Shown: piece by piece, positions 22,808-60,124 of the stretch
Layout: each line of letters starts with the position of its first letter
How positions within the stretch are numbered: the stretch's first letter is position 1
Assembly: GCF_001625215.2 (NCBI RefSeq)
Contig: NC_030385.2
Location: 4,085,135 to 4,149,134, forward strand
Reading direction: 5' to 3'
Source: Daucus carota subsp. sativus
Taxonomy: Eukaryota; Streptophyta; Magnoliopsida; Apiales; Apiaceae
DNA length: 64,000 nucleotides
The notes under the pieces: model-generated
Databases searched by the model: none
What the model was told of the DNA's origin: nothing
Seen by the model: only the letters and a program-made list of their open reading frames with translations
Program-made: the position numbers and the translations under genes

Positions 22808-23103
22808 CAATATTCAAGAAATGTATTGTCCTGTCCTCATACACAAACTTGATTCGGTCAAATTGAATTCACAATTTAATCTAGTGAACTAATAATATCA
22901 ATATAATTACTTGTTATTGTAATTAATTTGTTTCTTGGCCGGTGAATATTAATTTTGGTTAAACTCTGATCCAAAATAGTATGTTGTAGACATTATGATG
23001 GTAGGACGAGAACCACAATAACAATGGAAACTCAATCTAGTTGGACCAGAAGACTTAAAGAGAAGAAAGAAGAAAAACTAGATGTGTTCATCATAGAGGT
23101 GCA

Positions 23104-24575
23104 CCTTCAGATTTATGTAACTCACCCTGACATTGTGGACAACTATAACACCACCATTTCTGACCAGCTTCAATATTTGTAATCTTGACGAAACAAATAT
23201 ATTTGAGCTAAAATATCCCGATGCAACATTTGGTTTTAAGTATAGGAAAATCATTAAAGTCACTTGTGTAAATAAAATTATACCTTTTCTTTGACAATGC
23301 TGGTCTTCCCATAAAGCATTGACAATGTTATGTGATTTGAATTACAGGGGTTGGTGGAGAAGACAATGGTGCAGAACCAATCTATTCTACAACATCGGTT
23401 TAGCCCTCTTTCTTGAGTCTGAAATAAGGAAATAAAAATACAAAATTTGAAACCAATGCTCTAAAAATATTTATTTTTCAGGTTGGTGTATTCGGCTGTC
23501 ACAAACCTGTTCCTCATTGATCTAACAGCATCGTCATTCAAATTGAGGTATATTTTTGAAGACGGTAGAGTGTTAAGTTAGGCCGTATCTAAATTTTGTC
23601 TCTCAATATATTTCGGTTAGTTGACACATTATCTTTATAGGTTTTCATTTTGATAGAAGTCAAGATGACGATTATAGGAACGTCTGCCGAGACAGTAACC
23701 ACATGAGAGTACCTTGTAAAATTTGTTTTTTTAATATCAGAATGCATGGATGATGTTATTCAATTTCTTCAAATTTATAATAAATTATTAAATTAGAAAA
23801 TATTATAAGTCCAAATAATATATAACCTTCCATGAGTAATACGAAATTTTACAATATTCTGATCTCCATTCATAGTTTTGATATCCCTGTCCTTTTCAAA
23901 CTGTTCTATGGCACCGATGACATCTGTAATTAAAGAAAAAGATGGTAGAAAACATATAACATCTTAATAGAGGGCAAATGAGTATTCAATTTGATATTGT
24001 AAAATCTATCTATCTATTTATATACTAAATCCATATACTAAATCGCTCAACCTGTAGAGAAAGACTGTTTTTTCTCTTGCTCGTACTGGGTTGCAACGCG
24101 TATTATATAAATCACCGAGATCAACAAATTCAAACTTGTGATTTGCAATCATAAAGTCATCACCCAGAATCTTCTAGACCGTATAGTAGAGTTTTAAAAG
24201 TTAATTATTATTGTTGCACTTGTCCGCCTCATAGTACTAGTGGCTTCTTTGGTGTAGAAGTTGAATAGTAGGTAAATACCACCTTCTTTGATATCCTTTC
24301 CGATTGGTTTTCAGTTGTTGGGAAATACGAAAGCATGCACGTGAGAATTCTACATGATGAAAAAAATAAATTAATGAACAAATTTTCTACAATTCATCAA
24401 TAACAAATTTATGTCGTGATTCTGCAAATTAAAAAAACTTACATTCTCATAAAAAAGAATGAGGTTATAGCCTTTCAAATTCTGTCCAGGTTCACAAGTT
24501 GACTAGATGTTGAAGCCCACATGCGTGTAACACGAACCTTGATCCTCCATGTTGTCCGAGATGTATCTATAGAAG
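23104..24575 (-). pseudogene. RPA1-like (replication protein A 70 kDa subunit) pseudogene, array unit 1
   Basis: Minus-strand pieces in order read DTSRTTWRIKVRVTRMWAS, GYNLILFYEN, HVHAFVFPNN*KPIGKDIKE, GGIYLLFNFYTKEATSTMR, ILGDDFMIANHKFEFVDLGD, DVIGAIEQFEKDRDIKTMNG and DQNIVKFRITHGR, VSADVPIIVILTSIKMKTYK, NLNDDAVRSMRNRFVTAEY, and KWWCYSCPQCQGELHKSEG. They follow the OB-fold order of plant RPA1-like proteins, which bind single-stranded DNA in the nucleus. Intron-like AT-rich gaps with GT-AG borders separate them. A TGA stands where a Trp is expected before KPIGKDI, and a frameshift separates the first two pieces. The C-terminal zinc ribbon is cut after its first Cys pair, at about 23104. The gene is dead. 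Confidence 0.75.
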
Positions 24576-25367
24576 ACGGTTGATCAAATATTTGGTCAAG
24601 CTATCTACAATAATAAAATGATGCAGAGAAATAAAAAATGAACCCTTGTTTTGCCTCAGGTAGAAAATATTGCTTGGTTAAAATACTAACACTCATATGA
24701 ATATATATTACATGAAGAAACGATAATTAATGTTATTACATTTTGATCCCATTGACGTATTTCAAGGCATTATCAAAATTTATAGAAAATACTTCATATT
24801 ATCACTAAATACAGTATTTTGATCCCATTGACGTATTTCAAGGCATTATCACTATATACAATATAATTTGTCAGATGAATTTATATAGTAAGATAATAGC
24901 TAAAAATAATCTTGTATGAAAAAAATAAATAAATAATTGCTTATTTATACAATAAGTATAAAAATATATCGACTTTATTAAAAAAGTGTTAATATTTATT
25001 ATATTCATCATATATACAATGAATTAAAGAATATAAAATTTGATTCCTTCTTTAGCAATATATTTGGTTTGTATTTCTTTTTTATCTTTCTATTATAGTT
25101 ATAATTCACTTATAGAAAATAAGAATACAATGTATGTGATTGTATTTTTCTTTTTTATCAGTATTTTACTATTTAAGTTATGTCTCTTTTATAGAAAATA
25201 ATAGCATTCTTGCAATAATAAATTCTTTGTTAAGATGCTATTTCACACTATGGATAGTTTAAATAGGGATCAATAGAATACATCAAATCTCCTCAAAACC
25301 AATCTCACTTTTCTCTGTTCCCAAAATTTAAACCTAAAAAATCACAGACGTTTCTTCTTAATCGCAT
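24576..25367 (+). promoter_or_regulatory. Shared upstream region between RPA-like pseudogene and coiled-coil gene 1
   Basis: This AT-rich interval separates the two divergent genes. A 35-base block starting TTTTGATCCCATTGACGTAT is present twice, at 24741-24775 and 24817-24851. The second copy is deleted in unit 3. About 110 bases before the coiled-coil ATG is TTTAAATAGGG (25257 region), a possible TATA-like element. The function is inferred from position only. Confidence 0.4.
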
Positions 25368-27298
25368 ATGGACTCAGACCAGGTAATAAAAACTGGCAAC
25401 CCCAATACTAGAGCCTTGCCCTAATTTCGAAACTGTGTTACTACCAGAAGCACCATCTCCAAGAACTACCCCACCTGATTTGTTTTTGTGGTTTTTTTTT
25501 TTTTGTGTATTTTGTGATTCTTTAATATTAAAAAATCGACCTTTTTAATGGGTTTGATCTGATTTTCTATCTAGAAACTCCACTGTTGTTCAAATAATTG
25601 TATACGCCTGTTTGGTTGATATTTTGATGGTTTGATTTGTCTTTTTATTTTTTATTTTGCAGACACTTCTGGCCTTGCAAAACACTTATGCTGATGGGTT
25701 CTTGAATACATCTAACCAAGCAGCTGCGAAAGTACTGGCTGCAGAGAGAAAAGCTCAACAACTTGAGCAAGAACTGCAAGTTACAAAAGATAAATCGGCT
25801 CAAATGATGAGTAGGCTGAATAAAATGTTGGATGATAAGGTATTTTTCTTAATTTGGTTTTTACATATTGCTATATGTCTGTGCTTGAAAATGTTTTTTT
25901 TGGAGATATAACTTCTTGCTCAAATGTGTGTGCGTTTATTGATTGTTTTTTATTATGGAATTTTAGAACTTTTGTAATACAATCAAATTATTGTTTTGGT
26001 AGAAAGATACCGGTGTACAATCACCAGGTTTCTCGGTCTCTCTTTCACGGCACACAGGCACATTTTGTGATATATCGATTTATACATTATTATTTTGAAA
26101 TATTTGTTGGGTTTCGAACTTTCAATTTACATTGTAAGTTTTTTATGAGGCATTGGGGATAGCTACTATTTATGTGCGCCCCTCTAGGTTTCTCTTAAGA
26201 TTGTGATTGACTTTGAAACTAGGTTTTTTTGGGAGCTTCTTCTGTTAACAATGGGAACAATATGAGTAGGAATGTTGCATTAGTTATTCAAGATTCTTTT
26301 GCCTTTTGTGTTGGTGTTCACTTTCTATCTGTGGATATCCTATAGTTTTAATCACAGTGTATTGACACACGGTACCATATTTACAGATTAGTGAAGCCAA
26401 TATGGCATCTCGGAATCAACACGAGAGGATTGAAGAACTCGAAGCACAGGTTAGGGAAGCGGAGGATATAGTGAGGCAGCTCAGAGAAGAGCTGAGATGT
26501 GTGCGAGATCAGCATAAGAGGGTGAGTACGAAGGACCTGCAACACGCTGGCAAACAGCTGGATGATAAGGCTCCTCCAGAAGAAGCAATGGTGTATAATA
26601 GACAGTTGCAGTCTGTTCTGTGCAATCCCTTAGAATCAGCGACAGATTCTCTGGTAGGTTCTGACAAGGAAAATTTATATCCACATCACAGGACCCCATT
26701 CGGTAAGTGCACCAGCGAAGCAATTCAGATGTGGAGTTTGTATGGCCCCATGCCTGAATTACCTTCCATACTACAGAGAAGCAAGGAGCACAGATTATAC
26801 AAAAGTAGGTGCGCACACTGCATTGAAGCGAAGATGCCAACCAAGCATACACAAGCACTGTGCAAAGACGATTGTATTTGCTGTCTCTATGAAATTCATA
26901 CTACTGACTTGATACTAAAAGCTGCTAAAAGTGCTACCAACACCATGTACAAGAAGAAAAAACCCGCCTCAAGCAAGAAGATTCCCGAAAGATTGTTCCA
27001 AAAGGTACATGAGAGTCGTGGTGTACCTGATGAATCAGAGTCTGCTACTAAATCAGTAGGAAGAAGGGCTAAGCCTATTGAAGGTCCTATTTTACCAAAA
27101 GGTCCTTCTAGGGAATGTTCTAAGATTCAAGTATGCACACAAAACGTCATCAAGGTTAGCCAGCCTACTCCGCCACCTGATCTCAACAGTAATGGGACAA
27201 GTGCTCAAGCTTCTTCTCTGCAACATTTCAGATACACATACCAAAGGAAGCGGAAGAGAGAAACTCGAGACATAATTTCTGATGGAAATCTCTGCTGA
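25368..27298 (+). CDS. Plant coiled-coil protein of unknown function, copy 1
   Basis: Three exons are read: 25368-25382 (MDSDQ), 25663-25839 and 26387-27298. All have GT-AG borders in phase 0, giving 367 residues. Exon 2 and the start of exon 3 (about residues 15-112) form a heptad-like coiled coil, including AAERKAQQLEQELQVTKDKS and RIEELEAQVREAEDIVRQLR. The MASRNQHERIEELEAQ pattern matches my memory of an uncharacterised plant-specific family. Later features are a KEN triplet in SDKENLYPHH (158-160), a cysteine cluster (Cys 206, 209, 223, 227, 229, 230), and basic runs KKKKPASSKK (253-262) and RKRKRE (351-356) that could be nuclear signals. No catalytic motif is seen. Whether it is expressed cannot be judged. 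The conserved splice sites and open frames in six copies argue for a real gene. Confidence 0.75.
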
Positions 27299-27736: not shown

Positions 27737-27821
27737 CTCCTCTACGTGCGAATCTCCGTCGTGTGACATCTCTTCCTCTTAAGATGATGATCTTGAATAG
27801 CCCCTCCTTCTAGCGCCAATT

Positions 27822-29334
27822 TGTTGATAGAGGAATTTGGTAATCAACAAAGATGAGGTTCATGGCCGGAATCAAGATCCGTGACGGTGGTTTTGGTCGC
27901 CGGAGAGTGGTGGTTGTGTGTTTTGGGGGTGGCTGAGATCAAGGGAATATATTTCTGCTCTCGTTCTCACAACTCTCGATATATCCCCTTGATGTGCCTA
28001 CGTACCCCTTTATATAGGGGATCAAGCCGTACGTAGTTCTATAGAACCAAGACTCCTAGTTTGATCAGGACTAGGCCTCTTGGGGATAAGACCAACCGTG
28101 GGTCGGAGACTTATCACTTAGAGTTCTACTCCAGTTAGAAGTAAGCCTTGAGACAACTACCTTAGAATCCTAGTCCAAGTACATCACGGATACGGCATCA
28201 CCTCCACTACGAGAGGTGACACTAACCGCTACTCTTCGTAACATGGAGGAGACATCGGACAGAGTCGTGACCACTTCCATGAGGCGTAGGGACGCGTCCT
28301 TACCCCCTAGTGAAGGTTCTCACTAAGAGATAAGACAATTGAGGAGCCAAGTTACACGATCGTCCCAGTCCCCCAATGAGGACTAACTCACCAGAATACA
28401 GGACCCGGACATATGATCGGCCTTCGTGTTACCCCTGAGGGCCTTCTGCAACCATGATCACCCCAGGCCCCCGCACGAGGACAACCCGGCAGATAGCAGG
28501 ACTGGGGATTATAGATCATGCCCGGACGTAACCCGGGAACTACCAGATGAGCCTGATAACTACCAGATGAGCTCTGGCACTAGTCTTCATATCCCTCGGA
28601 AGGGTAGGTCTTCGTATCCCTCGGAAGGGTCGTCGTCGAGACTCACTCAACCTCACACATATTCATCACCTGTGGGCGCAACCACGGAGGGCGCGCCCTT
28701 GATCCTTGTTCCTCATTCTCTTCACACTTCAGACACGTGACATCGTGCTCTTGAGACAAAGGGCCGCGCCTCCCGGATTACCCGCGGAGGGCGCGCCCTC
28801 TCCCAATTCACGTGGCCAAATGTGGCCAAATATGGTCAAGCCTCTCATAGAGGTTACACCTCCAAAGGCTACGCCCTCTCATTGAGTTCAAGCCTCTCAT
28901 AGAGGTCACACCTCCCATAGAGGTTACACCTCCAAGGGGTACGCCCTCTCAAAGAGGTCACACCTCCGAGGGCCGCGCCCTATCACATAGGCCAAGCCTT
29001 CCGAGGGCTACGCCCTCTCATAGAGGTTACACCTCCAAGGGGTACGCCCTCTCATTCAATGCGTCCACATGTGGGCGCGACCCATGAGGGCGCGCCCTTC
29101 ATCTTCGATGTCTTGTCCCATGAGTCGTCTCAACAGGTCAGACATGTCTTCTAATATCCGAAGGCCGCGCCCACGGGATCACCCCGCCAAGAGCGCGCCC
29201 TTGGTCTTCTTCCCATGGCTATTCAAGATACTCCACTGACATGCTCCCCCCTGCCAGGAGGCCGCGCCCTCGGAATTACCTCCGAAAAGGGCGCGCCCTC
29301 TATAAGATTACCAGGGCCAAATCTGGCCATAACA
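27822..29334 (-). repeat. LTR, left copy (3' LTR in element orientation)
   Basis: On the minus strand it begins TGTTATGGCC and ends TATCAACA. CTATATAAAGGGG (about 28003-28016, minus strand) is a plausible TATA box, placing the transcription start about 190 bases before the LTR end. The U3 part is crowded with GGGCGCGCCC-type palindromes and repeated CCTCTCATAGAGGTTACACC blocks. Confidence 0.85.
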
Positions 29335-31694
29335 AGTACTCCCCAAATTTTCTTGATATTGGAGATATCAGGGAAATTTTTACCCCATACCACACATCCT
29401 CTTCCGAGAGCGCGTCCGCGCATAGAGGCGCGACATAAGCCACTATTATTCCTCGACATTCCAAGATGCAGGTTGTGCACAGACCTTGCAAGTATATAAT
29501 GTCGGTATCTTTGATTATTTTAGCAAAGTGGCTAGACATGAGGCTGGCGCATCTTTATGATGTGTTCATAAGTAATGAGCAATCTTTATAAAAGAAAACA
29601 GGGGACGCGACCTATCTGTCGTTGACAGTGGCGCAGCTTCGCTTATTCCCTCCAAAGAACACATTCAACCATAACATTCGCGCCAATGAACTTCAACAAA
29701 AGAAGGGCGCGCCTTCGCGGTGCGAAGGTTGGTGGCTGTTTTTCAGCCTTAGTGTGTCCATGGTACCTAGGAACAGTACATATAAGGCGCGACTTACAAA
29801 ACGGCGCCGCCTTGTTATAATATGACCCCTTTTTTATCTTTTTCTAAAGAATTGCCTAAGCAGAGGGCGCGGCTGATGGCGCTGCCTTGCAATATTTCTT
29901 TTCTTTCAAGGACTGTATAAGCAGAGGGCGCAGCCTACGGCGCAGCCTTACTTGTAACGTGGGCTCTTTTGATCTTTTCCAAGGATTAAGTAGAGGGCGC
30001 AGCCTTTGGCGCAGCCTTACTTTTTCACGCGTGAATCACTTGCTTAAGAAATTCAAAAGGACCACTCCCCAGTCCATACATCATCCCATATGGGGCATCA
30101 CGAATCTTATCATGGTTTATATAACTCCGGTGCATCGCACGGGTCCCAGAGCTCATAGCTCAATGGGGAATCAGTAGTATAAAGCGTTACCCAGAGAATA
30201 TCATGGATGGTTAAAATTCATAGCACCCAGAGCTGGTCATTGATAATTAGGCAACTTTTGAAAGGCCTTAAGTGTATCATGGTCAAAGACCTTGTAGGTA
30301 TCATGCTACGTTCATGATGAACGGAGGACGCGCTCTCATCAAGATGGACAGCTCCTTTAGCATGTCGGACTTGACCTGCACTCAATCATGTATACCACTT
30401 AATAATGGCGGTCAGTGTTACCTCATGACGTGCCCTGTTAGGGGGAAGGCGTGTCCTCCCGAATTATCAACCCTGGAAACATGACTTTGGAACTCGGGGT
30501 GCGTCCAACTAGAAGGAGGCGCGTCTTTGAAGCATCTCCCTTCTCAACCTTATTATCCTGGGGGCGCGCCCTCATGCGCTTCCTCAAGTGATGAGTACTT
30601 CCGAGAGGGCGCGCCCTAGGGAGGGACGTGACCTCTTCAAGACTAGTGAGCTCCTTCCTGAGTATGTTTGTCTTGTTGGAGGAAAATGCGACTACTCCTC
30701 ACGGCAAAGAGGTGTACTCCTCATAAAGGTAACACCGTATTACCCGGAGGTGCGCCTTCTTCGAAGGTGTTAGGGAATTCGTTCCTCACGGTGGTAATTG
30801 AGCACCACATCACTTGGAGGCGTACCCTGTCAGGGGGAGGTGTACCCTGTCCAGGGGAGGTGTACTCTATCCGGGGGAGGTGTTTAGGGCTTTTTCTTCC
30901 TTTAATTCATATTTAAGTGCCCTAAATTGACCGGGCCAGCAGCTAATCCAAACGGACCTAAAAAACGAAACTTTCCACAATCGGGGTAGCGCGGGCGCGC
31001 TACCAGGGCGCACCCAGGGCGCGGGCGCTCCCAGGGCGCGGGCGCGCCGCTCCAGGGCACAGGCGCGCCATAATGACAGACACGGGCGCTCCAAGGGCGC
31101 TCCCAGGGCGCGGGCGCGCCGCTCCAGGGCGCGGGCGCTCCCAGGGCGCACCCAGGGCGCGGGCGCGCCGTTCCAGGGCGCGGGCGCTCACAGGGCGCAC
31201 CCAGGGCGCGGGCGCGCCGCTCCAGGGCGCGGGCGCTCACAGGGCGCACCCAGGGCGCGGGCGCGCCGCTCCTGGGCGCGGGCGCTCGCTGGGCGCGGGC
31301 GCTCCCAGGGCGCAGGCGCGCCGCTCCAGGGCGCGGGCGCGCCACATGGGCGGACCCCGGGCGCTACCAGGGCGCTCTAGGGCGCTCGTGATTTTCTTTC
31401 TTTTCGCTTCATTTCTCGACTTCCAACCCACCGTATAAGCTTGGAAAAGTCCATACTCCCTCCACCTAGGCTCTTCTGTCCGGGGGAGGCGTACCCTGTT
31501 CGGGGGAGGTGTACCCTCTTCGTAGGTGTTAGGTCTCCGAAAATCGCATCCTTCACCGACTCCCCGGTCCAGAATACCTTGTTCGCATATTAGGTTACCT
31601 CCTAGAATTTCGTTGATGATCGTCCTCCTTCAAACTCCCGATGAAGGTCTCATCTTCTCTTGTGCTCTAGCCATCGCCCTGCCGGAAAACGATC
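29335..31694 (-). other. GC-rich noncoding interior of the LARD-like element
   Basis: No gag, protease, reverse transcriptase, RNase H or integrase motif is seen on either strand. The open frames here are low-complexity readings (Ala, Arg, Pro, Gly) of a GC-rich repeat. Repeated GAGGGCGC(G/A)GCC motifs occur at about 29865-30020, and GGGGGAGGTGTACCCT-like motifs at about 30815-30880 and 31470-31530. Confidence 0.7.
30985..31385. repeat. GC-rich minisatellite inside the LARD-like element
   Basis: Irregular tandem units are built from GGGCGCGGGCGCGCC, GCTCCAGGGCGCGGGCGCT and CCCAGGGCGCACCCAGG. They are repeated about ten times with small shifts. The stretch is far richer in G and C than the rest of the window. 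Confidence 0.9.
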
Positions 31695-31758
31695 CTCCTC
31701 TACGTGCGAATCTCCGTCGTGTGACATCTCTTCCTCTTAAGATGATGATCTTGAATAG

Positions 31759-31776
31759 CCCCTCCTTCTAGCGCCA
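31759..31776 (-). promoter_or_regulatory. Primer-binding site of the LARD-like element
   Basis: TGGCGCTAGAAGGAGGGG on the minus strand follows the end of the right LTR after three bases. It begins TGG, complementary to the CCA end of a tRNA. The tRNA identity is not assigned. A duplicate stands at 27801-27818, outside the left LTR. Confidence 0.65.
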
Positions 31777-31779
31777 ATT

Positions 31780-33292
31780 TGTTGATAGAGGAATTTGGTA
31801 ATCAACAAAGATGAGGTTCATGGCTGGAATCAAGATCCGTGACGGTGGTTTTGGTCGCCGGAGAGTGGTGGTTGTGTGTTTTGGGGGTGGCTGAGATCAA
31901 GGGAATATATTTCTGCTCTCGTTCTCACAACTCTCGATATATCCCCTTGATGTGCCTACGTACCCCTTTATATAGGGGATCAAGCCGTACGTAGTTCTAT
32001 AGAACCAAGACTCCTAGTTTGATCAGGACTAGGCCTCTTGGGGATAAGACCAACCGTGGGTCGGAGACTTATCACTTAGAGTTCTACTCCAGTTAGAAGT
32101 AAGCCTTGAGACAACTACCTTAGAATCCTAGTCCAAGTACATCACGGATACGGCATCACCTCCACTACGAGAGGTGACACTAACCGCTACTCTTCGTAAC
32201 ATGGAGGAGACATCGGACAGAGTCGTGACCACTTCCATGAGGCGTAGGGACGCGTCCTTACCCCCTAGTGAAGGTTCTCACTAAGAGATAAGACAATTGA
32301 GGAGCCAAGTTACACGATCGTCCCAGTCCCCCAATGAGGACTAACTCACCAGAATACAGGACCCGGACATATGATCGGCCTTCGTGTTACCCCTGAGGGC
32401 CTTCTGCAACCATGATCACCCCAGGCCCCCGCACGAGGACAACCCGGCAGATAGCAGGACTGGGGATTATAGATCATGCCCGGACGTAACCCGGGAACTA
32501 CCAGATGAGCCTGATAACTACCAGATGAGCTCTGGCACTAGTCTTCATATCCCTCGGAAGGGTAGGTCTTCGTATCCCTCGGAAGGGTCGTCGTCGAGAC
32601 TCACTCAACCTCACACATATTCATCACCTGTGGGCGCAACCACGGAGGGCGCACCCTTGATCCTTGTTCCTCATTCTCTTCACACTTCAGACACGTGACA
32701 TCGTGCTCTTGAGACAAAGGGCCGCGCCTCCCGGATTACCCGCGGAGGGCGCGCCCTCTCCCAATTCACGTGGCCAAATGTGGCCAAATATGGTCAAGCC
32801 TCTCATAGAGGTTACACCTCCAAAGGCTACGCCCTCTCATTGAGTTCAAGCCTCTCATAGAGGTCACACCTCCCATAGAGGTTACACCTCCAAGGGGTAC
32901 GCCCTCTCAAAGAGGTCACACCTCCGAGGGCCGCGCCCTATCACATAGGCCAAGCCTTCCGAGGGCTACGCCCTCTCATAGAGGTTACACCTCCAAGGGG
33001 TACGCCCTCTCATTCAATGCGTCCACATGTGGGCGCGACCCCTGAGGGCGCGCCCTTCATCTTCGATGTCTTGTCCCATGAGTCGTCTCAACAGGTCAGA
33101 CATGTCTTCTAATATCCGAAGGCCGCGCCCACGGGATCACCCCGCCAAGAGCGCGCCCTTGGTCTTCTTCCCATGGCTATTCAAGATACTCCACTGAAAT
33201 GCTCCCCCCTGCCAGGAGGCCGCGCCCTCGGAATTACCTCCGAAAAGGGCGCGCCCTCTATAAGATTACCAGGGCCAAATCTGGCCATAACA
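31780..33292 (-). repeat. LTR, right copy (5' LTR in element orientation)
   Basis: It has the same length as the left copy. Differences noted by eye are at about 31827, 32652, 33042 and 33199. The next base to the right is the RPA-like sequence of array unit 2. Confidence 0.85.
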
Positions 33293-36302: not shown

Positions 36303-36448
36303 GAAACCATACTCGGGAGAAATAAGGAAAAACAAAATATGATGGTAGGACGAGAACCACAATAACAATGGAAACTCAATCTAGTTGGACCAGAAGACTT
36401 AAAGAGAAGAAAGAAGAAAAACTAGATGTGTTCATCATAGAGGTGCAC

Positions 36449-38645: not shown

Positions 38646-40559
38646 ATGGACTCAGACCAGGTAATGAAAACTGGCAACCCCAATACTAGAGCCTTGCCCT
38701 AATTTCGAAACTGTGTTACTACCAGAAGCACCATCTCCAAGAACTACCCCACCTGATTTGTTTTTGTGGTTTTTGTGATTCTTTAATATTAAAAAATCGA
38801 CCTTTTTAATGGGTTTGATCTGATTTTCTATCTAGAAACTCCACTGTTGTTCAAATAATTGTATATGCCTGTTTGGTTGATATTTTGATGGTTTGATTTG
38901 TCTTTTTATTTTTTATTTTGCAGACACTTCTGGCCTTGCAAAACACTTATGCTGATGGGTTCTTGAATACATCTAACCAAGCAGCTGCGAAAGTACTGGC
39001 TGCAGAGAGAAAAGCTCAACAACTTGAGCAAGAACTGCAAGTTACAAAAGATAAATCGGCTCAAATGATGAGTAGGCTGAATAAAATGTTGGATGATAAG
39101 GTATTTTTCTTAATTTGGTTTTTACATATTGCTATATGTCTGTGCTTGAAAATGTTTTTTTTGGAGATATAACTTCTTGCTCAAATGTGTGTGCGTTTAT
39201 TGATTGTTTTTTATTATGGAATTTTAGAACTTTTGTAATACAATCAAATTATTGTTTTGGTAGAAAGATACCGGTGTACAATCACCAGGTTTCTCGGTCT
39301 CTCTTTCACGGCACACAGGCACATTTTGTGATATATCGATTTATACATTATTATTTTGAAATATTTGTTGGGTTTCGAACTTTCAATTTACATTGTAAGT
39401 TTTTTATGAGGCATTGGGGATAGCTACTATTTATGTGCGCCCCTCTAGGTTTCTCTTAAGATTGTGATTGACTTTGAAACTAGGTTTTTTTGGGAGCTTC
39501 TTCTGTTAACAATGGGAACAATATGAGTAGGAATGTTGCATTAGTTATTCAAGATTCTTTTGCCTTTTGTGTTGGTGTTCACTTTCTATCTGTGGATATC
39601 CTATAGTTTTAATCACAGTGTATTGACACACGGTACCATATTTACAGATTAGTGAAGCCAATATGGCATCTCGGAATCAACACGAGAGGATTGAAGAACT
39701 CGAAGCACAGGTTAGGGAAGCGGAGGATATAGTGAGGCAGCTCAGAGAAGAGCTGAGATGTGTGCGAGATCAGCATAAGAGGGTGAGTACGAAGGACCTG
39801 CAACACGCTGGCAAACAGCTGGATGATAAGGCTCCTCCAGAAGAAGCAATGGTGTATAATAGACAGTTGCAGTCTGTTCTGTGCAATCCCTTAGAATCAG
39901 CGACAGATTCTCTGGTAGGTTCTGACAAGGAAAATTTATATCCACATCACAGGACCCCATTCGGTAAGTGCACCAGCGAAGCAATTCAGATGTGGAGTTT
40001 GTATGGCCCCATGCCTGAATTACCTTCCATACTACAGAGAAGCAAGGAGCACAGATTATACAAAAGTAGGTGCGCACACTGCATTGAAGCGAAGATGCCA
40101 ACCAAGCATACACAAGCACTGTGCAAAGACGATTGTATTTGCTGTCTCTATGAAATTCATACTACTGACTTGATACTAAAAGCTGCTAAAAGTGCTACCA
40201 ACACCATGTACAAGAAGAAAAAACCCGCCTCAAGCAAGAAGATTCCCGAAAGATTGTTCCAAAAGGTACATGAGAGTCGTGGTGTACCTGATGAATCAGA
40301 GTCTGCTACTAAATCAGTAGGAAGAAGGGCTAAGCCTATTGAAGGTCCTATTTTACCAAAAGGTCCTTCTAGGGAATGTTCTAAGATTCAAGTATGCACA
40401 CAAAACGTCATCAAGGTTAGCCAGCCTACTCCGCCACCTGATCTCAACAGTAATGGGACAAGTGCTCAAGCTTCTTCTCTGCAACATTTCAGATACACAT
40501 ACCAAAGGAAGCGGAAGAGAGAAACTCGAGACATAATTTCTGATGGAAATCTCTGCTGA
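38646..40559 (+). CDS. Coiled-coil protein of unknown function, copy 3
   Basis: The exons are 38646-38660, 38924-39100 and 39648-40559. The product is identical to copies 1 and 2. Its upstream region lacks one copy of the 35-base promoter-side repeat and adjoining bases (near 38165), so the distance to the RPA-like pseudogene is shorter. Confidence 0.75.
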
Positions 40560-43229: not shown

Positions 43230-45143
43230 ATGGACTCAGACCAGGTAATGAAAACTGGCAACCCCAATACTAGAGCCTTGCCCTAATTTCGAAACTGTGT
43301 TACTACCAGAAGCACCATCTCCAAGAACTACCCCACCTGATTTGTTTTTGTGGTTTTTGTGATTCTTTAATATTAAAAAATCGACCTTTTTAATGGGTTT
43401 GATCTGATTTTCTATCTAGAAACTCCACTGTTGTTCAAATAATTGTATATGCCTGTTTGGTTGATATTTTGATGGTTTGATTTGTCTTTTTATTTTTTAT
43501 TTTGCAGACACTTCTGGCCTTGCAAAACACTTATGCTGATGGGTTCTTGAATACATCTAACCAAGCAGCTGCGAAAGTACTGGCTGCAGAGAGAAAAGCT
43601 CAACAACTTGAGCAAGAACTGCAAGTTACAAAAGATAAATCGGCTCAAATGATGAGTAGGCTGAATAAAATGTTGGATGATAAGGTATTTTTCTTAATTT
43701 GGTTTTTACATATTGCTATATGTCTGTGCTTGAAAATGTTTTTTTTGGAGATATAACTTCTTGCTCAAATGTGTGTGCGTTTATTGATTGTTTTTTATTA
43801 TGGAATTTTAGAACTTTTGTAATACAATCAAATTATTGTTTTGGTAGAAAGATACCGGTGTACAATCACCAGGTTTCTCGGTCTCTCTTTCACGGCACAC
43901 AGGCACATTTTGTGATATATCGATTTATACATTATTATTTTGAAATATTTGTTGGGTTTCGAACTTTCAATTTACATTGTAAGTTTTTTATGAGGCATTG
44001 GGGATAGCTACTATTTATGTGCGCCCCTCTAGGTTTCTCTTAAGATTGTGATTGACTTTGAAACTAGGTTTTTTTGGGAGCTTCTTCTGTTAACAATGGG
44101 AACAATATGAGTAGGAATGTTGCATTAGTTATTCAAGATTCTTTTGCCTTTTGTGTTGGTGTTCACTTTCTATCTGTGGATATCCTATAGTTTTAATCAC
44201 AGTGTATTGACACACGGTACCATATTTACAGATTAGTGAAGCCAATATGGCATCTCGGAATCAACACGAGAGGATTGAAGAACTCGAAGCACAGGTTAGG
44301 GAAGCGGAGGATATAGTGAGGCAGCTCAGAGAAGAGCTGAGATGTGTGCGAGATCAGCATAAGAGGGTGAGTACGAAGGACCTGCAACACGCTGGCAAAC
44401 AGCTGGATGATAAGGCTCCTCCAGAAGAAGCAATGGTGTATAATAGACAGTTGCAGTCTGTTCTGTGCAATCCCTTAGAATCAGCGACAGATTCTCTGGT
44501 AGGTTCTGACAAGGAAAATTTATATCCACATCACAGGACCCCATTCGGTAAGTGCACCAGCGAAGCAATTCAGATGTGGAGTTTGTATGGCCCCATGCCT
44601 GAATTACCTTCCATACTACAGAGAAGCAAGGAGCACAGATTATACAAAAGTAGGTGCGCACACTGCATTGAAGCGAAGATGCCAACCAAGCATACACAAG
44701 CACTGTGCAAAGACGATTGTATTTGCTGTTTCTATGAAATTCATACTACTGACTTGATACTAAAAGCTGCTAAAAGTGCTACCAACACCATGTACAAGAA
44801 GAAAAAACCCGCCTCAAGCAAGAAGATTCCCGAAAGATTGTTCCAAAAGGTACATGAGATTCGTGGTGTACCTGATGAATCAGAGTCTGCTACTAAATCA
44901 GTAGGAAGAAGGGCTAAGCCTATTGAAGGTCCTATTTTACCAAAAGGTCCTTCTAGGGAATGTTCTAAGATTCAAGTATGCACACAAAACGTCATCAAGG
45001 TTAGCCAGCCTACTCCGCCACCTGATCTCAACAGTAATGGGACAAGTGATCAAGCTTCTTCTCTGCAACATTTCAGATACACATACCAAAGGAAGCGGAA
45101 GAGAGAAACTCGAGACATAATTTCTGATGGAAATCTCTGCTGA
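43230..45143 (+). CDS. Coiled-coil protein of unknown function, copy 4
   Basis: The exons are 43230-43244, 43508-43684 and 44232-45143. The frame is open over 367 residues. Three replacements against copies 1-3 are seen: Leu231Phe just after the cysteine cluster, Ser274Ile and Ala337Asp. I noticed no silent change, which suggests that the few differences are not under strong constraint. The downstream flank has a two-base deletion (GAGCAGGCAAG) not seen elsewhere. Confidence 0.75.
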
Positions 45144-47812: not shown

Positions 47813-49742
47813 ATGGACTCAGACCAGGTAATGAAAACTGGCAACCCCAATACTAGAGCCTTGCCCTAATTTCGAAACTGTGTTACTACCAGAAGCACCA
47901 TCTCCAAGAACTACCCCACCTGATTTGTTTTTGTGGTTTTTTTTTTTTGTGTATTTTGTGATTCTTTAATATTAAAAAATCGACCTTTTTAATGGGTTTG
48001 ATCTGATTTTCTATCTAGAAACTCCACTGTTGTTCAAATAATTGTATATGCCTGTTTGGTTGATATTTTGATGGTTTGATTTGTCTTTTTATTTTTTATT
48101 TTGCAGACACTTCTGGCCTTGCAAAACACTTATGCTGATGGGTTCTTGAATACATCTAACCAAGAAGCTGCGAAAGTACTGGCTGCAGAGAGAAAAGCTC
48201 AACAACTTGAGCAAGAACTGCAAGTTACAAAAGATAAATCGGCTCAAATGATGAGTAGGCTGAATAAAATGTTGGATGATAAGGTATTTTTCTTAATTTG
48301 GTTTTTACATATTGCTATATGTCTGTGCTTGAAAATGTTTTTTTTTGAGATATAACTTCTTGCTCAAATGTGTGTGCGTTTATTGATTGTTTTTTATTAT
48401 GGAATTTTAGAACTTTTGTAATACAATCAAATTATTGTTTTGGTAGAAAGATACCGGTGTACAATCACCAGGTTTCTCGGTCTCTCTTTCACGGCACACA
48501 GGCACATTTTGTGATATATCGATTTATACATTATTATTTTGAAATATTTGTTGGGTTTCGAACTTTCAATTTACATTGTAAGTTTTTTATGAGGCATTGG
48601 GGATAGCTACTATTTATGTGCGCCCCTCTAGGTTTCTCTTAAGATTGTGATTGACTTTGAAACTAGGTTTTTTTGGGAGCTTCTTCTGTTAACAATGGGA
48701 ACAATATGAGTAGGAATGTTGCATTAGTTATTCAAGATTCTTTTGCCTTTTGTGTTGGTGTTCACTTTCTATCTGTGGATATCCTATAGTTTTAATCACA
48801 GTGTATTGACACACGGTACCATATTTACAGATTAGTGAAGCCAATATGGCATCTCGGAATCAACACGAGAGGATTGAAGAACTCGAAGCACAGGTTAGGG
48901 AAGCGGAGGATATAGTGAGGCAGCTCAGAGAAGAGCTGAGATGTGTGCGAGATCAGCATAAGAGGGTGAGTACGAAGGACCTGCAACACGCTGGCAAACA
49001 GCTGGATGATAAGGCTCCTCCAGAAGAAGCAATGGTGTATAATAGACAGTTGCAGTCTGTTCTGTGCAATCCCTTAGAATCAGCGACAGATTCTCTGGTA
49101 GGTTCTGACAAGGAAAATTTATATCCACATCACAGGACCCCATTCGGTAAGTGCACCAGCGAAGCAATTCAGATGTGGAGTTTGTATGGCCCCATGCCTG
49201 AATTACCTTCCATACTACAGAGAAGCAAGGAGCACAGATTATACAAAAGTAGGTGCGCACACTGCATTGAAGCGAAGATGCCAACCAAGCATACACAAGC
49301 ACTGTGCAAAGACGATTGTATTTGCTGTCTCTATGAAATTCATACTACTGACTTGATACTAAAAGCTGCTAAAAGTGCTACCAACACCATGTACAAGAAG
49401 AAAAAACCCGCCTCAAGCAAGAAGATTCCCGAAAGATTGTTCCAAAAGGTACATGAGAGTCGTGGTGTACCTGATGAATCAGAGTCTGCTACTAAATCAG
49501 TAGGAGGAAGGGCTAAGCCTATTGAAGGTCCTATTTTACCAAAAGGTCCTTCTAGGGAATGTTCTAAGATTCAAGTATGCACACAAAACGTCATCAAGGT
49601 TAGCCAGCCTACTCCGCCACCTGATCTCAACAGTAATGGGACAAGTGCTCAAGCTTCTTCTCTGCAACATTTCAGATACACATACCAAAGGAAGCGGAAG
49701 AGAGAAACTCGAGACATAATTTCTGATGGAAATCTCTGCTGA
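47813..49742 (+). CDS. Coiled-coil protein of unknown function, copy 5
   Basis: The exons are 47813-47827, 48107-48283 and 48831-49742. The frame is open over 367 residues. Two replacements are noted: Ala to Glu in exon 2 (TSNQEAAKV, also present in copy 6) and Arg290Gly. Intron 1 carries the T-rich insert seen in copies 1 and 6, and the start context ATATGG is shared with copy 1. It is the last whole unit of the array. Confidence 0.75.
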
Positions 49743-50755: not shown

Positions 50756-51144
50756 TTGTTATTCCGCAGCCAGGCGGTGGTGAAGCCGTCCCTGGTTGTG
50801 GAGGCGCAGAATAAGTGTGTGACAAGGTAGTTTCAGGTAGGCGTTGCAAAAGGATGGTGGCAAAGCTGCATGTTTAGTATGGGATGCATGTGTAGTAGGG
50901 GCTGCTGTGAAAGACGAGGCGATGCCGAAGAAGCTCGTTGAAGGCAGAAAATGAGATAGAGAGACAGGAAGCCATGTAGAACGAGATGGAACACTTTGTC
51001 GAAGCAGAGACACGAAAGGTGTTTGATGGAATGTCCGAGAGAGATATTTTTGGTTGGAATGCAATGATTTTTGAAGTCGAGAAAGTCACGGGGTAGTTGT
51101 GTTCTCTATTTTCTGGTGAAATCAAATGGAGGTGAACATGCGAG
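50756..51144 (+). other. Composite sequence after the copia leader, holding a PPR fragment
   Basis: No retrotransposon protein is seen. The DNA is GC-richer than its surroundings and contains the PPR motif described next. Its origin is unclear: a captured transcript or a separate insertion. Confidence 0.45.
50980..51072 (+). pseudogene. Single PPR motif fragment (PLS-type)
   Basis: The frame reads NEMEHFVEAETRKVFDGMSE then RDIFGWNAMIF. The R-K-V-F-D-x-M-x-E-R-D-x-x-x-W-N-A-M-I pattern is the standard PLS-class PPR repeat of plants. A stop codon precedes it and the similarity ends soon after. It is not related to the P-type PPR genes elsewhere in the window. Confidence 0.7.
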
Positions 51145-51415
51145 ACGGGCAAACACGAAAAGTTCTGGACGGGCAAATAAAAGTGCCATATGGGCAAGAA
51201 CAAAAGGGCCAGATGGGCGGGCAAATAAAACTGCCAGATGGGTAAGAAAAAAGGGCCAGATAGGCAAACAAGATGTGCCAGATAGGTAAATAAGAAGGGT
51301 CATACGGGCTAAGTTGAAAACCAAATGGGTTGAAAGCCATACGAGCTAAATTGAATAGCCATACGGGCTTAGGTTAAAAGGCCATAAGGCCTATAAAGAA
51401 AGTCAGATGGTCTTC
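51145..51415. repeat. Degenerate ~20 base minisatellite
   Basis: About twelve diverged copies of a unit like GCCAGATGGGCAAATAAAA, later drifting to GCCATACGGGCTAAGTTGAA. Long overlapping frames on both strands here are by-products of the repeat. Confidence 0.8.
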
Positions 51416-51429
51416 CCAGAAAGCATGAC

Positions 51430-52098
51430 AATGTTATGTGGTTTGAATTACAGGGGTTGGTGGAGAAGACAATGGTGCAAAATCAATCTATTGTGCAACA
51501 TGGGTATAGCCCTCTTTCTCGAGTCTGAAATAAAGAAATAAAATATAAAATCTGAAACCAATGCTCTAAAAATATTTATTTTTCAGGTTGGTGTATTCGG
51601 CTATCACAAACCTGTTCCTCATTGATCTAACAGCATCGTCATTTAAATTGAGGTATATTTTTGAAGCCGGTAGAGTGTAAAGCTAGGCCGTATCTAAATT
51701 TTGTCTCTCAATATATTTCGGTTAGTTGACACATTACCTTTATAGGTTTTCAATTTGATAGAAGTCAAGATGACAATTATAGAAAGTTCTCCCTAGACAG
51801 TAACCACATGAGAGTACCTTGTAAAATTTGTATTTAAATATCAGAATGCATGGATGAAGTTATTCAATTTCTTCAAATTTACAATAAACTATTAAATTAG
51901 CAAATATAGTAAGTCCAAATAATATATAACCTTCCATGAGTAATACGAAATTTTACAATCTTCTGATCTCCGTACATAGTTTTGATATCCCTGACATTGT
52001 CACACTATTCTATGGCACCGATGACATCTGTAATTAAAGAAAATGATGGTAGAAAACATATAACATCTTAATAGAGTGCAAATGAGTATTCAATTTGA
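51430..52098 (-). pseudogene. RPA1-like pseudogene fragment joined to a CACTA fragment
   Basis: The middle of the RPA-like gene is present, from the NLNDDAVRS piece to the DVIGAIE piece, with more differences from the array units than they have among themselves. At 52098/52099 it joins directly to sequence matching the inside of the CACTA copy at 20797. Confidence 0.65.
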
Positions 52099-53042
52099 TG
52101 CTTTTAAGATTGTATTTTACTTGATTAGTCATAATTTGAAATGAGAATTAGGTAGGTTGTAGCTATTCCTGAATATGGATAAAGAATGAATTTTGAATGA
52201 CAGGGATTTGTTGGATTATGAAATTGGTGTTGAATTATGCTGAATAAAATTGTAAAGTATCCTAAGAAAGTACCTTACCCCTGCTCCAAATGCGTAAATT
52301 TCATGAAATTCTCGACAAAAATAATTAGGGGTCATTTGTATGAAGACAGTTTTAGTTTGGGGTATATTGATTGGATTTACATGGAGCTCAGACTGTAAGG
52401 TCATTTATGGGTAACACACTACACCCGATGAAGATGACCCGAATGCAGCTTCATTTGAAGCTGCATCGGAAGCTGCTGCTGCTGAAGTTTGTGAAGCAAC
52501 ATATCATAACCGGGCCGGGGGGGGGGGTTGATGATTACGATAAAGACTCGCACGAGCCAAGAGGTTTGTGGATGATGCTCAACAACCTCTATTAGATTTA
52601 ATGTTAAAATTACATAATTGCAAAGCGATATTTGGTATTAGTGACAACTTCTTTAGTGATCTACTTTGTATTGTGGGCTCCATCCTTTCTTAAGATCATA
52701 TACGAAGCAAAGAAAAATTTATCAAATTGAGGCCTCGAGTATATAAAAATTCACACATGGGCGAATGAATGTATTCTATATAGGGGCGTAAATGAGAATA
52801 CTTCAGAGTGTCCCAAGTGTCGTCTATCTCGGCTGAAGCTGGGGAAGGATGATAAAGTAAGGGTTAACATTCGAGCCAATGTTATGTGGTACTTTCTACG
52901 ATAGATGAGTTATTGACTTGGCATTCCAATCAAAGAATTTACGTTGGACAAATGTGTCATCCGGATGACTCACCTTCTTGGTGGAATATCGATTACAGGT
53001 GGCCCACTTTCGGCAGTGAGCCTAGAGACCTTCAGCAGATGG
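52099..53042 (+). pseudogene. Second TNP2-like CACTA fragment
   Basis: It matches 20797-21694 closely but with several small deletions. It carries a run of 11 G at 52517-52527 and frame breaks in the WIxHGAQ start. Beyond the point where the left copy is interrupted, this one continues MCHPDDSPSWWNIDYRWPTF then GSEPRDLQQM, as in TNP2 proteins. It is not functional. No CACTA terminus is found near it. Confidence 0.72.
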
Positions 53043-55300: not shown

Positions 55301-56034
55301 TATCACAAATTACTCCCTCTCATCCCTTAGATAAGATGTTTGGAGAGTTTTTGTTTAGTTTATAATATAAGTCATTTTTCACGTGAAACAAGTATTTAAT
55401 GTGATTATCTATGTTTGTCTACGTTTGCTTTTACACATTCCAAATTAAAAAAAGTAATAAATTAACATATGAGAATAAACATTCATATACATATATTATT
55501 TTATAAAATTTAAACATTGTAAATTATATTCATTAAAAATCAAAAATATATTAATATAGTTTGTTATTAATATGCATATTTTATTAATTTGATGACTATG
55601 CAAAGTTCTTAAATTTATATTTTGTTCAAATTTATTTTTGATTCATTTTTAATCTCTTACATTTATTTTTATATGTTTCTAATTTAAAAATATTAAATTA
55701 GCTAATATACGAAAGTAAACAATCGTGTACATATATTATTTTATAACATTTTAAAGAATAAAAGAAAATTCACTGTAAAACAAAATTATATTAAAACAAT
55801 TTTCAATTAATATGCATATTTTATCCAAACGTCTTATAATATAGATATTAACTTGTATAAATTACAACTATAATTTACTTTATAAGAAATGTAAATTAAT
55901 GCCAACCATCACGAGTGTATGGACTTCAACATTTCAATTAAATATTAATTATTGAAAATTACACATAATATTTATGAGTTATTGCTAATATGTGAATACA
56001 CAATTTCTTTTCTTGATAGAAAATCACTATGTGG
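55301..56034. mobile_element. AT-rich insert with MITE-like ends and an internal duplication
   Basis: The left end reads TACTCCCTCTCATCCCTTAG then ATAAGATGTTTGG. Near 55825-55845 the reverse complement reads TATTATAAGACGTTTGG, so the inner parts of Stowaway-like ends may both be present. Inside, a block of about 140 bases ending ATTAATATGCATATTTTAT is duplicated (about 55442-55585 and 55683-55826). The insert replaces the N-terminal half of the RPA-like gene. Confidence 0.45.
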
Positions 56035-56527: not shown

Positions 56528-58449
56528 ATGGACTCACACCAGGTAATGAAAACTGGCAACCCCAATACTAGAGCCTTGCCCTAATTTCCAAACTGTGTTA
56601 CTACCAGAAGCACCATCTCCAAGAACTACCCCACCTGATTTGTTTTTGTAGTTTTTTTTTTTTTTTTGTGGTATTTTGTGATTCTTTAATAAAAAATCGA
56701 CCTCTTTAATGGGTTTGATCTGATTTTCTATCTAGAAACAGCACTATTGTTCAAATAATTGTATATGCCTGTTTGGTTGATATTTTGATGGTTTGATTTG
56801 TTTTATTATTTTTTATTTTGCAGACACTTACTTATGCTGATGGGTTCTTGAATACATCTAACCAAGAAGCTGCGGAAGTACTGGCTGCAGAGAGAAAAGC
56901 TCAACAACTTGAGCAAGAACTGCAAGTTACAAAAGATAAGTCGGCTCAAATGATGATTAGGCTGAATAAAATGTTGGATGATAAGGTATAAACTTTTTTT
57001 AATTTGGTTTTTACATATTGCTATATGTCTGTGCTTGAAATTGTTTTTTTGGAGATATAACTTCTTGCTCAAATGTGTGTGCGTTTATTGATTGTTTTTT
57101 TATTATGGCTTTTAAAACTTTTATACTACAATCAAATTATTGTTTTGGGTAGAAAGATACCGGTGTACGATCACCAGGCTTCTCTGTCTCTCTTTCACGG
57201 CACACAGGCACATTTTGTGATATATCAATTTATACATTATTATTTTGAAATATTTGTTGGGTTTCGAACTTCAATTTACATTGTAAGTTTTTTATGAGGC
57301 ATTGGGGATAGCTACTATTTATGTGCGCCCCTCTAGGTTTCTCTTAAGATTGTGTGATTGACTTTGAAACTAGGGTTTTTTCGGAGATTCTTCTGTTAAC
57401 AATCGGAACAATATGAGTAGGAATGTTGCATTAGTTATTCAAGATTCTTTTGCCTTTTGTGTTGGTGTTCACTTTCTATCTATGGATATCCTGTAGTTTT
57501 AATCACAGTGTATTGACACACGGTACCATATTTACAGATTAGTGAAGCTAATATGGCATCTCGGAATCAACACGAGAGGATTGAAGAACTCGAAGCACAG
57601 GTTAGGGAAGCGGAGGATATAGTGAGGCAGCTCAGAGAAGAGCTGAGATGTGTGCAAGATGAGCATAAGAGGGTGAGTACGAAGGACCTGCAACACGCTG
57701 GCAAACAGTTGGATGATAAGGATCCTCCAGAAGAAGCAATGGTGTATAATAGACAGTTGCAGTCTGGTCTGTGCAATCCCTTAGAATCAGCGACAGATTC
57801 TCTGGTAGGTTCTGACAAGGAAAATTTATATCCACATCACAGGACCCCATTCGGTAAGTGCACCAGCGAAGCAATTCAGATGTGGAGTTTGTATGGCCCC
57901 ATGCCTGAATTACCTTCTATACTACAGAGAAGCAAGGAGCACAGATTATACAAAAGTAGGTGCGCACACTGCATTGAAGCGAAGATGCCAACCAAGCATA
58001 CACAAGCACTGTGCAAAGACGATTGTATTTGCTGTCTCTATGAAATTCATACTACTGACTTGATACTAAAAGCTGCTAAAAGTGCTACCAAGACCATGTA
58101 CAAGAAGAAAAAACCCGCCTCAAGCAAGAAGATTCCGGAAAGATTGTTCCAAAAGGTACATGAGAGTCGTGGTGTGCCTGATGAATCAGCGTCTGCTACT
58201 AAATCAGTAGGAAGAAGGGCTAAGCCTATTGAAGGTCCTATTTTACCAAAAGGTCCTTTTAGGGAATGTTCTAAGATTCAAGTATGCACACAAAACGTCA
58301 TCAAGGTTAGCCAGCCTACTCCGCCACCTGATCTCAACAGTAATGGGACAAGTGCTCAAGCTTCTTCTCTGCAACATTTCAGATACACATACCAAAGGAA
58401 GCGGAAGAGAGAAACTCGAGACATAATTTCTGATGGAAATCTCTGCTGA
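56528..58449 (+). CDS. Coiled-coil protein of unknown function, diverged copy 6
   Basis: The exons are 56528-56542 (MDSHQ), 56824-56985 and 57538-58449, giving 362 residues. Exon 2 lacks 15 bases in frame (residues LALQN), shortening the first helix. In exon 3, by eye, there are seven replacements against copy 1 (Arg to Gln and Gln to Glu in RCVQDEHKR, Ala to Asp, Val to Gly, Asn to Lys, Glu to Ala, Ser to Phe) and about five silent changes. The KEN triplet and all six cysteines of the cluster are kept. The frame and splice sites are intact. It is the oldest member of the family here and lies outside the regular array. Confidence 0.72.
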
Positions 58450-58855
58450 GAAACCACACTCGGGAGAAATAAGGAAAAACAAAATATGAGCAGAGCAAGA
58501 GTGGTTTGGTAGCTCATCTCCGAATCTTAGGCTGGGAATAACACACAAAGATATTAGACAATATTCAAGAAATGTATTGTCCTGTCCTCATACACAAACT
58601 TGATTCGGTCAAATTGAATTCACAATTTAATCTAGTGAACTAATAATATCCATATAATTACTTGTTATTGTAATTAATTTGTTTCTTGGCGGGTGAATAT
58701 TAATTTTGTTTAAACTCTGATCCAAAATAGTATGTTGTAGACATTATGATGGTAGGACCAGAACCACAATAACAATGGAAACTCAATCTAGTTGGACCAG
58801 AAGACTTAAAGAGAAGAAAGAAGGAAAACTAGATGTGTTCATGATAGAGGTGCAC

Positions 58856-60124
58856 CTTCAGATTTATGTAACTCACCCTGACATTGTGGACAACTATAAC
58901 ACCACCATTTCTGACCGGCTTCAATATTTGTAATCTTGATGAAACAAATACTCCCTCCATCCCATTTTAAGTGTCCACTTTGCCAAAAAAAAAAAATTCC
59001 CAAAATATGTGTCATACTCTTTAACCCATGCAATTTTTTACTAGTTCCAATAGAGTATTAAATACAACCAACTAGTTCCAATATGAAGAAAGGTCATATA
59101 CACACTAGGAGTGGTGCTATACGTAATTAATATTTATAAAAACCAAGGTGAATAGGTGTGTGAAGATAATGATAAAAACATTACATTAATTGTTTCTTAA
59201 GATGTGTGAATTTGCAAAGTGGACACTTAAAATGGGATGGAGGGAGTGTATTTGAGCTAAAATATCCCCATGCAACATTTGGTTTTAAGTATAGGAAAAT
59301 CATTAAAGTCACTTGTGTAAATAAAATTATACCTTTTCTTTGACAATGCTGGTCTTCGCATAAAGCATTGACAATGTTATTTGAATTACAAGGGTTGGTG
59401 GAGAAGACAATGGTGCAAAATCAATCTATTCTGCAGCATGGGTATAGCCCTCTTTCTCGAGTCTGAAATAAAGAAATAAAATATAAAATCTGAACGAATG
59501 CTCTAAAAATATTTATTTTTCAGGTTGGTGTATTCGGCTGGCACAAACCTATTCCTCATTGATCTAACAGCATCGTCATTCAAATTGAGGTATATTTTTG
59601 AAGCCGGTAGAGTGTTAAGCTAGGTCGTATCTAAATTTTGTCTCTCAATATATTTCGGTTCGTTGACACATTACCTTTATAGGTTTTCAATTTGATATAA
59701 GTCAAGATGACCATTATAGGAAGTTTTCCCTAGACAGTAACCACGAGTACCTTGTAAAATTTGTCTTTTAAATATCAGAATACATGGATGAAGTTATTCA
59801 ATTTCTTCAAATTTATAATAAACTACTAAATTAGAAAATAGTGTAAGTCCAAATAATATATAACCTTCCATGAGTAATACGAAATTTTACAATCTTCTGA
59901 TCTCCGTACATAGTTTTGATATCCCTGACATTGTCAAACTGTTCTATTTCACCGATGACATCTGTAATTAAAGAAAATGATGGTAGAAAACATATAACAT
60001 CTTAGTAGAGTGCAAATGAGTATTCAATTTGATATCGTAAGATCTATCTATCTATGTATATACTAAATCCATATACTAAATCGCTGAACCTGTAGAGAAA
60101 GACTATTTTTTCTCTTTCTCGTAG
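58856..60124 (-). pseudogene. RPA1-like pseudogene fragment, split by a MITE
   Basis: It follows coiled-coil gene 6 as in the array units. It contains the zinc-ribbon start (AGQKWWCYSCPQCQGELHKS), the middle OB-fold pieces, and ends inside the piece that reads RCNPVRAREKTVFLYR in whole units. Similarity stops at about 60124. A MITE at 58951-59246 interrupts it. Confidence 0.7.
58951..59246. mobile_element. MITE (Stowaway-like) inserted in the RPA-like fragment
   Basis: The ends are long perfect inverted repeats: CTCCCTCCATCCCATTTTAA then GTGTCCACTTTGC, against its complement at 59213-59246. The array units carry the uninterrupted site CAAATATATTTGAG (for example 23197-23210), which serves as the empty site. 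The right junction has extra TG before TATTTG, so the target duplication is not a clean TA pair. Confidence 0.85.

Follow-up and report, generated by a model that had tools for sequence, protein, structure and literature searches.

The coiled-coil proteins F0562_024976 of Nyssa and LOC132284262 of Cornus, which are 510-511 amino acids (aa) long, combine an N-terminal coiled coil with a YTFQR basic run, the residues DLPSI, and a C-terminal SRDSRRLAQVARQLIS.SEKKWWQ motif; searches of the literature by identifier and by topic returned no described role for the family to which they belong. Within the Apiaceae, a canonical paralogue (Apium LOC141684231, Heracleum POM88_044222, and Daucus ACET3Z_022536, hereafter P0204) shares this N-terminal coiled coil as well as the basic run. 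Here, we analyzed 64,000 nucleotides of the carrot (Daucus carota subsp. sativus) genome, C5:4085135-4149134 on the 47,556,597-base contig C5 (this whole stretch is referred to as the window; positions are those of the window unless preceded by a contig name), which contain six copies of a gene of this family, on which the same literature searches returned no title. The carrot copies share the N-terminal coiled coil and the basic run with the Nyssa and Cornus proteins but lack the C-terminal motif. Unlike the canonical paralogue, which in carrot lies on another contig (C6), they belong to a separate clade; P0204 is 38% identical to copy 1 and has a lower ratio of nonsynonymous to synonymous divergence (dN/dS). 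We consider it probable that the copies form a recent tandem array that arose by unequal exchange and was homogenised, and that amplification acted on an Apiaceae paralogue that changes fast in carrot. The amplification is recent and of an ordinary kind.

Exon alignment across the window places the six copies head-to-tail on the plus strand, with three exons each and coding spans that extend over 33 kb, from 25368 to 58449:

25368..27298, plus strand: copy 1, exons 25368-25382, 25663-25839, and 26387-27298; 367 aa
34389..36302, plus strand: copy 2, exons 34389-34403, 34667-34843, and 35391-36302; coding sequence (CDS) equal to that of copy 1
38646..40559, plus strand: copy 3, exons 38646-38660, 38924-39100, and 39648-40559; CDS equal to that of copy 1
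43230..45143, plus strand: copy 4, exons 43230-43244, 43508-43684, and 44232-45143; L231F, S274I, and A337D relative to copy 1
47813..49742, plus strand: copy 5, exons 47813-47827, 48107-48283, and 48831-49742; A25E and R290G relative to copy 1
56528..58449, plus strand: copy 6, exons 56528-56542, 56824-56985, and 57538-58449; 362 aa

Copies 2-6 align to copy 1, and all six keep GT/AG splice sites and open frames. Copies 1-5 encode 367 aa, whereas copy 6 encodes 362 aa because its exon 2 has lost 15 nt in frame; in addition, copy 6 differs from copy 1 by 17 substitutions (11 nonsynonymous, 6 synonymous). Over the 912 bases of exon 3, differences from copy 1 number 0 in copies 2 and 3, 1 in copy 5, 3 in copy 4, and 12 in copy 6. 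The first-pass annotation of this DNA had described six open three-exon copies of 362-367 aa in 33 kb, five of them nearly identical and regularly spaced at about 4.6 kb, and had interpreted them as an uncharacterised coiled-coil gene that was amplified locally and recently. Splice sites and frames agree with this description, the genome search described below recovers the same six copies, and recent amplification is supported, as is the near-identity of copies 1-5. By contrast, the spacing is not regular, because successive ATG-to-ATG distances are 9021, 4257, 4584, 4583, and 8715 bp and thus only two of the five intervals correspond to 4.58 kb.

The repeated unit of ~4.58 kb consists of an upstream part containing a piece of a degraded minus-strand gene, the gene itself, and a 3' tail. 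In a self-alignment, the copy 1 and copy 5 units match over 4932 bp at 99.1% identity, and the repeats are far beyond chance. The junction at which a gene tail meets the minus-strand remnant, near the position equivalent to 23108, recurs before copy 1, before copy 3 (in altered form), before copies 4 and 5, and after copy 6, and marks a duplication breakpoint. Four further features lie within or at the edges of the array:

22808..24085, no strand assigned: unit start, where a gene tail of ~300 bp runs near 23108 into the degraded minus-strand gene piece
27737..33292, no strand assigned: truncated long terminal repeat (LTR)-type element of 5.56 kb between copies 1 and 2
51408..52980, no strand assigned: diverged pieces in the interval between copies 5 and 6 (51408-52099 resembling 23301-23995 at 93%, and 52093-52980 resembling 20788-21695 at 92%)
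58559..60123, no strand assigned: partial unit after copy 6, with tail and degraded piece, broken by a 298-bp insert resembling a miniature inverted-repeat transposable element (MITE)

Incomplete units occur at either edge (22808; 58559-60123) and hint that the array was formerly longer; the one after copy 6 points to a former extension on the right. The region at 50.2-56.1 kb, between copies 5 and 6, is a mosaic with diverged unit pieces; a degraded seventh copy, there or elsewhere in the window, was ruled out by tblastn with seven relatives, which matched the six copies alone.

Individual units also differ in private ways. Copies 1 and 5 have in common a tail that extends 35 bp past the junction, unlike the other units; copy 2 has lost ~260 bp of its 3' flank, starting ~40 bp past the stop codon; and the region upstream of copy 3 carries a rearrangement limited to positions equivalent to 24815-24922, which accounts for most of its difference and rules out a general divergence of that region. 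These differences bear on whether the plant might contain fewer copies than the assembly, in which part of the array would be an assembly duplication. The identical CDSs of copies 1-3 speak for such an artefact, yet the spacers of these three copies differ, and private differences mark the units (the LTR-type element, the copy 2 3' deletion, the copy 3 spacer rearrangement, the substitutions in copies 4 and 5, and the MITE-like insert and exon-2 deletion of copy 6), making this explanation very improbable. The description of the carrot DH1 v3 assembly (PMC10581907) presents it as a doubled-haploid assembly of 440.7 Mb from PacBio and Nanopore reads.

The LTR-type element has direct repeats at 27737-29334 and 31695-33292, of 1598 bp each and with 4 differences between them. 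Its right end is CA; there is no TG at the left end and no target-site duplication was seen for 27737-33292, the flanks of which are not contiguous in other units. Because the left TG is absent and the flanks are non-contiguous elsewhere, this arrangement fits a 5' truncation. Two open reading frames (ORFs) tested from the element gave no Pfam match, and its interior is GC-rich, with a 49-bp tandem repeat at 31083-31364. Substitution rates are ~1.3e-8 per site per year in rice and ~0.7e-8 in Arabidopsis; at these rates the element would date back roughly 0.1-0.2 million years, and roughly 0.3-0.6 million years would separate the copy 1 unit from that of copy 5. The 298-bp insert after copy 6 (58951-59248) has the inverted ends CTCCCTCC...GGAGGGAG and is presumably akin to a Stowaway MITE. 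The degraded minus-strand gene includes a zinc-ribbon-like piece and is found at 54067-55303 and 22994-24085, the array units carrying a truncated form; an RPA1-like identity was not accepted for this remnant, because its match to PF08646 reached 15.1 bits, below the cut-off of 28.5, and was not the best match, and we keep it as a lead.

A search with 298 residues of exon 3 covered the genome (441,086,747 bases in 11 contigs) and gave counts that are lower bounds. At least 10 matches were obtained, corresponding to the six copies, two stretches of one C5 gene, and two places on C6; the same six copies are the only close ones among the matches listed, at 98-100% identity. The C5 gene, at C5:4196672-4198231, starts ~52 kb to the right of copy 6 and encodes the protein P0005 exactly (555 of 555 residues). 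Of the related carrot genes it is the nearest (41% identity over aligned columns, synonymous divergence (dS) 0.65), and it has the same pattern of exons 2-3, but unlike the array copies it is longer, its exons 2 and 3 comprising at least 619 codons, lacks KEN, retains a variant of RNGCTQR, and appears unamplified in the genome search, the matches again being a lower bound. One of the C6 places encodes P0204 (99.8%) and the second is a shorter, rearranged relative; the latter (L012, 1699-5149) lies ~46 kb from the P0204 gene and contains the start of exon 3 twice. The annotated carrot protein LOC135152676 (P0001) matches copy 5 residue for residue, including both residues that are particular to copy 5, but unlike our model of that copy contains an extra 87-nt exon (29 residues) within intron 2.

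A tree of 23 proteins, from which P0209 (a probable chimeric model) and copies 2 and 3 (identical to copy 1) were left out, resolves two Apiaceae paralogue clades. The 15 Apiaceae-type rows form one group (100/100), which divides in two, with the canonical clade (100/100) on one side and, on the other, a clade (94/93) comprising P0005, the carrot copies (100/100), and Heracleum sosnowskyi POM88_051052-051055; carrot and Heracleum group together at 99/97. Heracleum 051053 and 051054 occupy less than half of the tree columns. The tags 051052 to 051055 are consecutive and their contigs are of one size, which indicates that these are neighbouring genes. Like the array, they have KEN and ELPSI (in four of four) and YTFQRKRKRE (in two of four), and their identity to copy 1 over aligned columns is 53-56%; for 051055 the value is 53%, or 49% by BLASTP, as compared with 68% between P0204 and 044222. 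The Heracleum genes differ from the carrot array in being more diverged from each other (61-81% identity in the four pairs compared). Change has been faster on the carrot branch: the stem of the carrot array measures 0.64 changes per column and that of the carrot canonical protein 0.16.

The same branch has the higher dN/dS. For copy 1, the P0005 gene, and the P0204 gene, compared over 350 shared codons (Nei-Gojobori, three-point branches, 400 bootstraps), dN/dS was 0.76 on the array branch (0.48-1.22), 0.51 on the P0005 branch (0.31-0.98), and 0.31 on the carrot canonical branch (0.20-0.47), values that poorly alignable stretches may inflate. The first-pass annotation had named a dN/dS indistinguishable from 1 across orthologues as an outcome that would refute its interpretation; here, within carrot paralogues and not across orthologues, the array branch shows this outcome. 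In the proposed codon-based comparison of the copies, the counts do not differ from neutral: between copies 1 and 6 the proportions of nonsynonymous and synonymous differences are 0.0128 and 0.0264, the 6 synonymous changes of 17 are not in excess of the neutral share (p 0.16-0.31, depending on transition bias), and the five nonsynonymous and zero synonymous changes in copies 1-5 show no departure from it (p 0.20-0.29).

These results bear on the alternative offered in the first-pass annotation between selection for dosage and extreme youth, of which youth is favored. According to the former, selection for the amount of protein drove the array and maintains it, in agreement with the open frames in six of six copies. 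However, in the array CDS only 4.0-4.9% of random substitutions produce a stop, and the chance that all frames stay open is ~0.8 for five substitutions and ~0.4-0.5 for the seventeen of copy 6 (indels uncounted). Because open frames are expected at such divergence, those of the young copies are weak evidence for selection or function. The exons of copy 6 are less diverged than its introns, as dosage would have it, but the untranslated tail is conserved as much as the exons (6 differences in 410 positions; p = 1.0 against exons, p = 0.005 against introns). Similarly, Heracleum also has several neighbouring copies, but two of the four models are short, at 242 and 236 aa. Together with the counts of substitutions and the array-branch dN/dS, these points count against dosage selection, which we regard as unlikely; like a cell-cycle role, it is possible yet unsupported.

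A stronger form of the explanation that we prefer, and compatible with it, is that the extra copies are functionless and merely too young to have been broken. All five changes among copies 1-5 are nonsynonymous, copy 2 is without most of its 3' flank, and the array branch has the dN/dS of 0.76 already given. In addition, the carrot frame ends at an in-frame stop after SDGNLC, whereas similarity to Heracleum and Apium proteins runs on in the same frame beyond it. This early stop need not mean loss, however, because five of six canonical Apiaceae proteins (partial models included) also lack the C-terminal motif; moreover, an annotated gene model, with the extra exon, exists for copy 5, and the frame has outlasted a long ancestral branch. 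We therefore treat complete loss of function in the extra copies as a tentative possibility.

Several observations weigh against a recent, homogenised array of a fast-changing paralogue under relaxed constraint. Support is firm for a group of three Heracleum proteins (100/99), but 051055 joins them weakly (86/49), and the Heracleum end branches, at 0.11-0.19, are not accelerated; the acceleration accordingly belongs to the carrot branch and not to the whole array clade. The array dN/dS interval takes in 0.5 as well, and in the N-terminal block alone (115 codons) the array branch is uninformative (median 0.94, 0.30 to 15), while the canonical branch is low (0.04-0.21). The exon-intron difference of copy 6 (17/1089 against 37/808, p = 0.0001) can be read as constraint, and its indels mildly favor the same reading: three of five in intron 2 are of 1 bp and the sole coding indel is in-frame. 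Because the tail is as low as the exons, local exchange explains the exon-intron gap at least as well as coding constraint. Finally, with dS of 0.38 on the array branch, a neutral 1.1-kb frame would by arithmetic carry more than 10 stops, and because the frame is nevertheless open, constraint must have acted on the lineage over much of its history; its ancestor, when still single-copy, probably had a function.

With these points in mind, the sequence of events that we infer for the recent tandem array is as follows. An ancestral, functional single-copy Apiaceae paralogue would have changed fast on the carrot branch; unequal exchange would then have duplicated the unit in tandem at the tail-remnant breakpoint; further exchange or gene conversion would have homogenised the copies; and constraint on the extra copies would have relaxed.

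For the family as a whole, a search of 5.8 billion proteins returned 110 relatives at E <= 0.001, the best being LOC135152676 (92% identity), which represents a 17-member cluster; a search with the Nyssa relative returned at least 785 proteins, of which 120 are listed. The matches listed come from flowering plants, for the most part eudicots but also Aristolochia and Ananas, and golgin-like, myosin-like, and kinase names on some of the listed proteins were taken as automatic annotation. Pfam provided no consistent family, because the 11 families that reached E <= 0.01 (best 1.1e-4) matched just one or two of the 41 aligned members apiece, and the family profile matched nothing in PDB at E <= 0.1. 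In a structural model of P0001, with its extra exon included, helices at 3-70 and 77-150 are of high confidence, the mean predicted local distance difference test score (pLDDT) is 61, and 203 of 396 residues fall below 50, the remainder beyond the helices being mostly disordered.

The first-pass annotation had pointed to a basic run, a cysteine cluster, and a KEN triplet as making a nuclear, regulated role conceivable. The basic run held up: YTFQRKRK, which lies close to the C terminus, is present in the array copies as YTYQRKRKRE and the conserved form is YT[FY]QRKRKRE, although a strict pattern, found in 167 of 219 proteins, misses P0001 because of the change from F to Y. By contrast, a zinc-finger or zinc-binding reading of the cysteine cluster was rejected because the cluster is not conserved even in Heracleum, nor in the canonical proteins compared. 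KEN precedes LPSI in P0001 and, within the array clade, in the four Heracleum proteins; once the 14 proteins treated as Apiaceae are set aside, none of the 95 that could be scored has it within 60 residues before LPSI. It is also found in P0201 and P0217 and, at any position, in 22 of 205 others as compared with 43.9 in shuffles. At best, the triplet would thus be a clade-specific gain; as a KEN box, it would mark a putative APC/C substrate. Among the other motifs, EAEDIV in the N-terminal coiled-coil block is present with at most one mismatch in 202 of 219 proteins including P0001, whereas P0001 lacks both RNGCTQR (168 of 219, at most one mismatch) and the C-terminal ARQLIS.SE motif (131 of 219, at most two mismatches). 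The array is not alone in having lost the latter, which most canonical Apiaceae proteins lack too. We file the array protein as a derived paralogue by descent, on the basis of the tree, and not as a full functional member. For the parent family, the coiled coil and the conserved RKRK run suggest a scaffold- or adaptor-like, probably nuclear role. As a long shot, a conserved nuclear coiled-coil protein might have evolved a second version in the Apiaceae, one that was amplified repeatedly, acquired KEN as a degron, and, in common with its sister clade, lost the C-terminal motif for the most part; regulated by the cell cycle, this version could be a partner of the parent protein or a competitor, with fast turnover in carrot as in genetic conflict.

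Elsewhere in the window, a pentatricopeptide gene at 15247-17277 on the minus strand resembles plastid pTAC2/PAP2 (PDB 8w9z chain E, At1g74850-like, 1043 bits), and 8363-9862, also on the minus strand, is an open pentatricopeptide repeat frame of 499 codons from stop to stop. A 0.9-kb block outside the main units occurs at 20788-21695 and 52093-52980 with 91.8% identity; three ORFs tested in or beside 20788-21695 gave one weak DUF6490 match (17.8 bits, cut-off 23.7). The 2 kb at 61535-63583 are repeated at 92% identity past the right end of the window (L009 1963-3988). From the neighbouring pTAC2 gene, At1g74860 or At1g19010 would be a speculative candidate for the Arabidopsis orthologue of the array gene; searches of the literature with these two identifiers gave no paper.

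We suggest that the young array, the older relative nearby, the slower canonical paralogue, and the Heracleum gene set could together separate drift, gene conversion, and selection. The array also illustrates how little the open frames of very young copies say about function, and it draws attention to a protein family, widespread in plants, whose role is not described in the literature searched.

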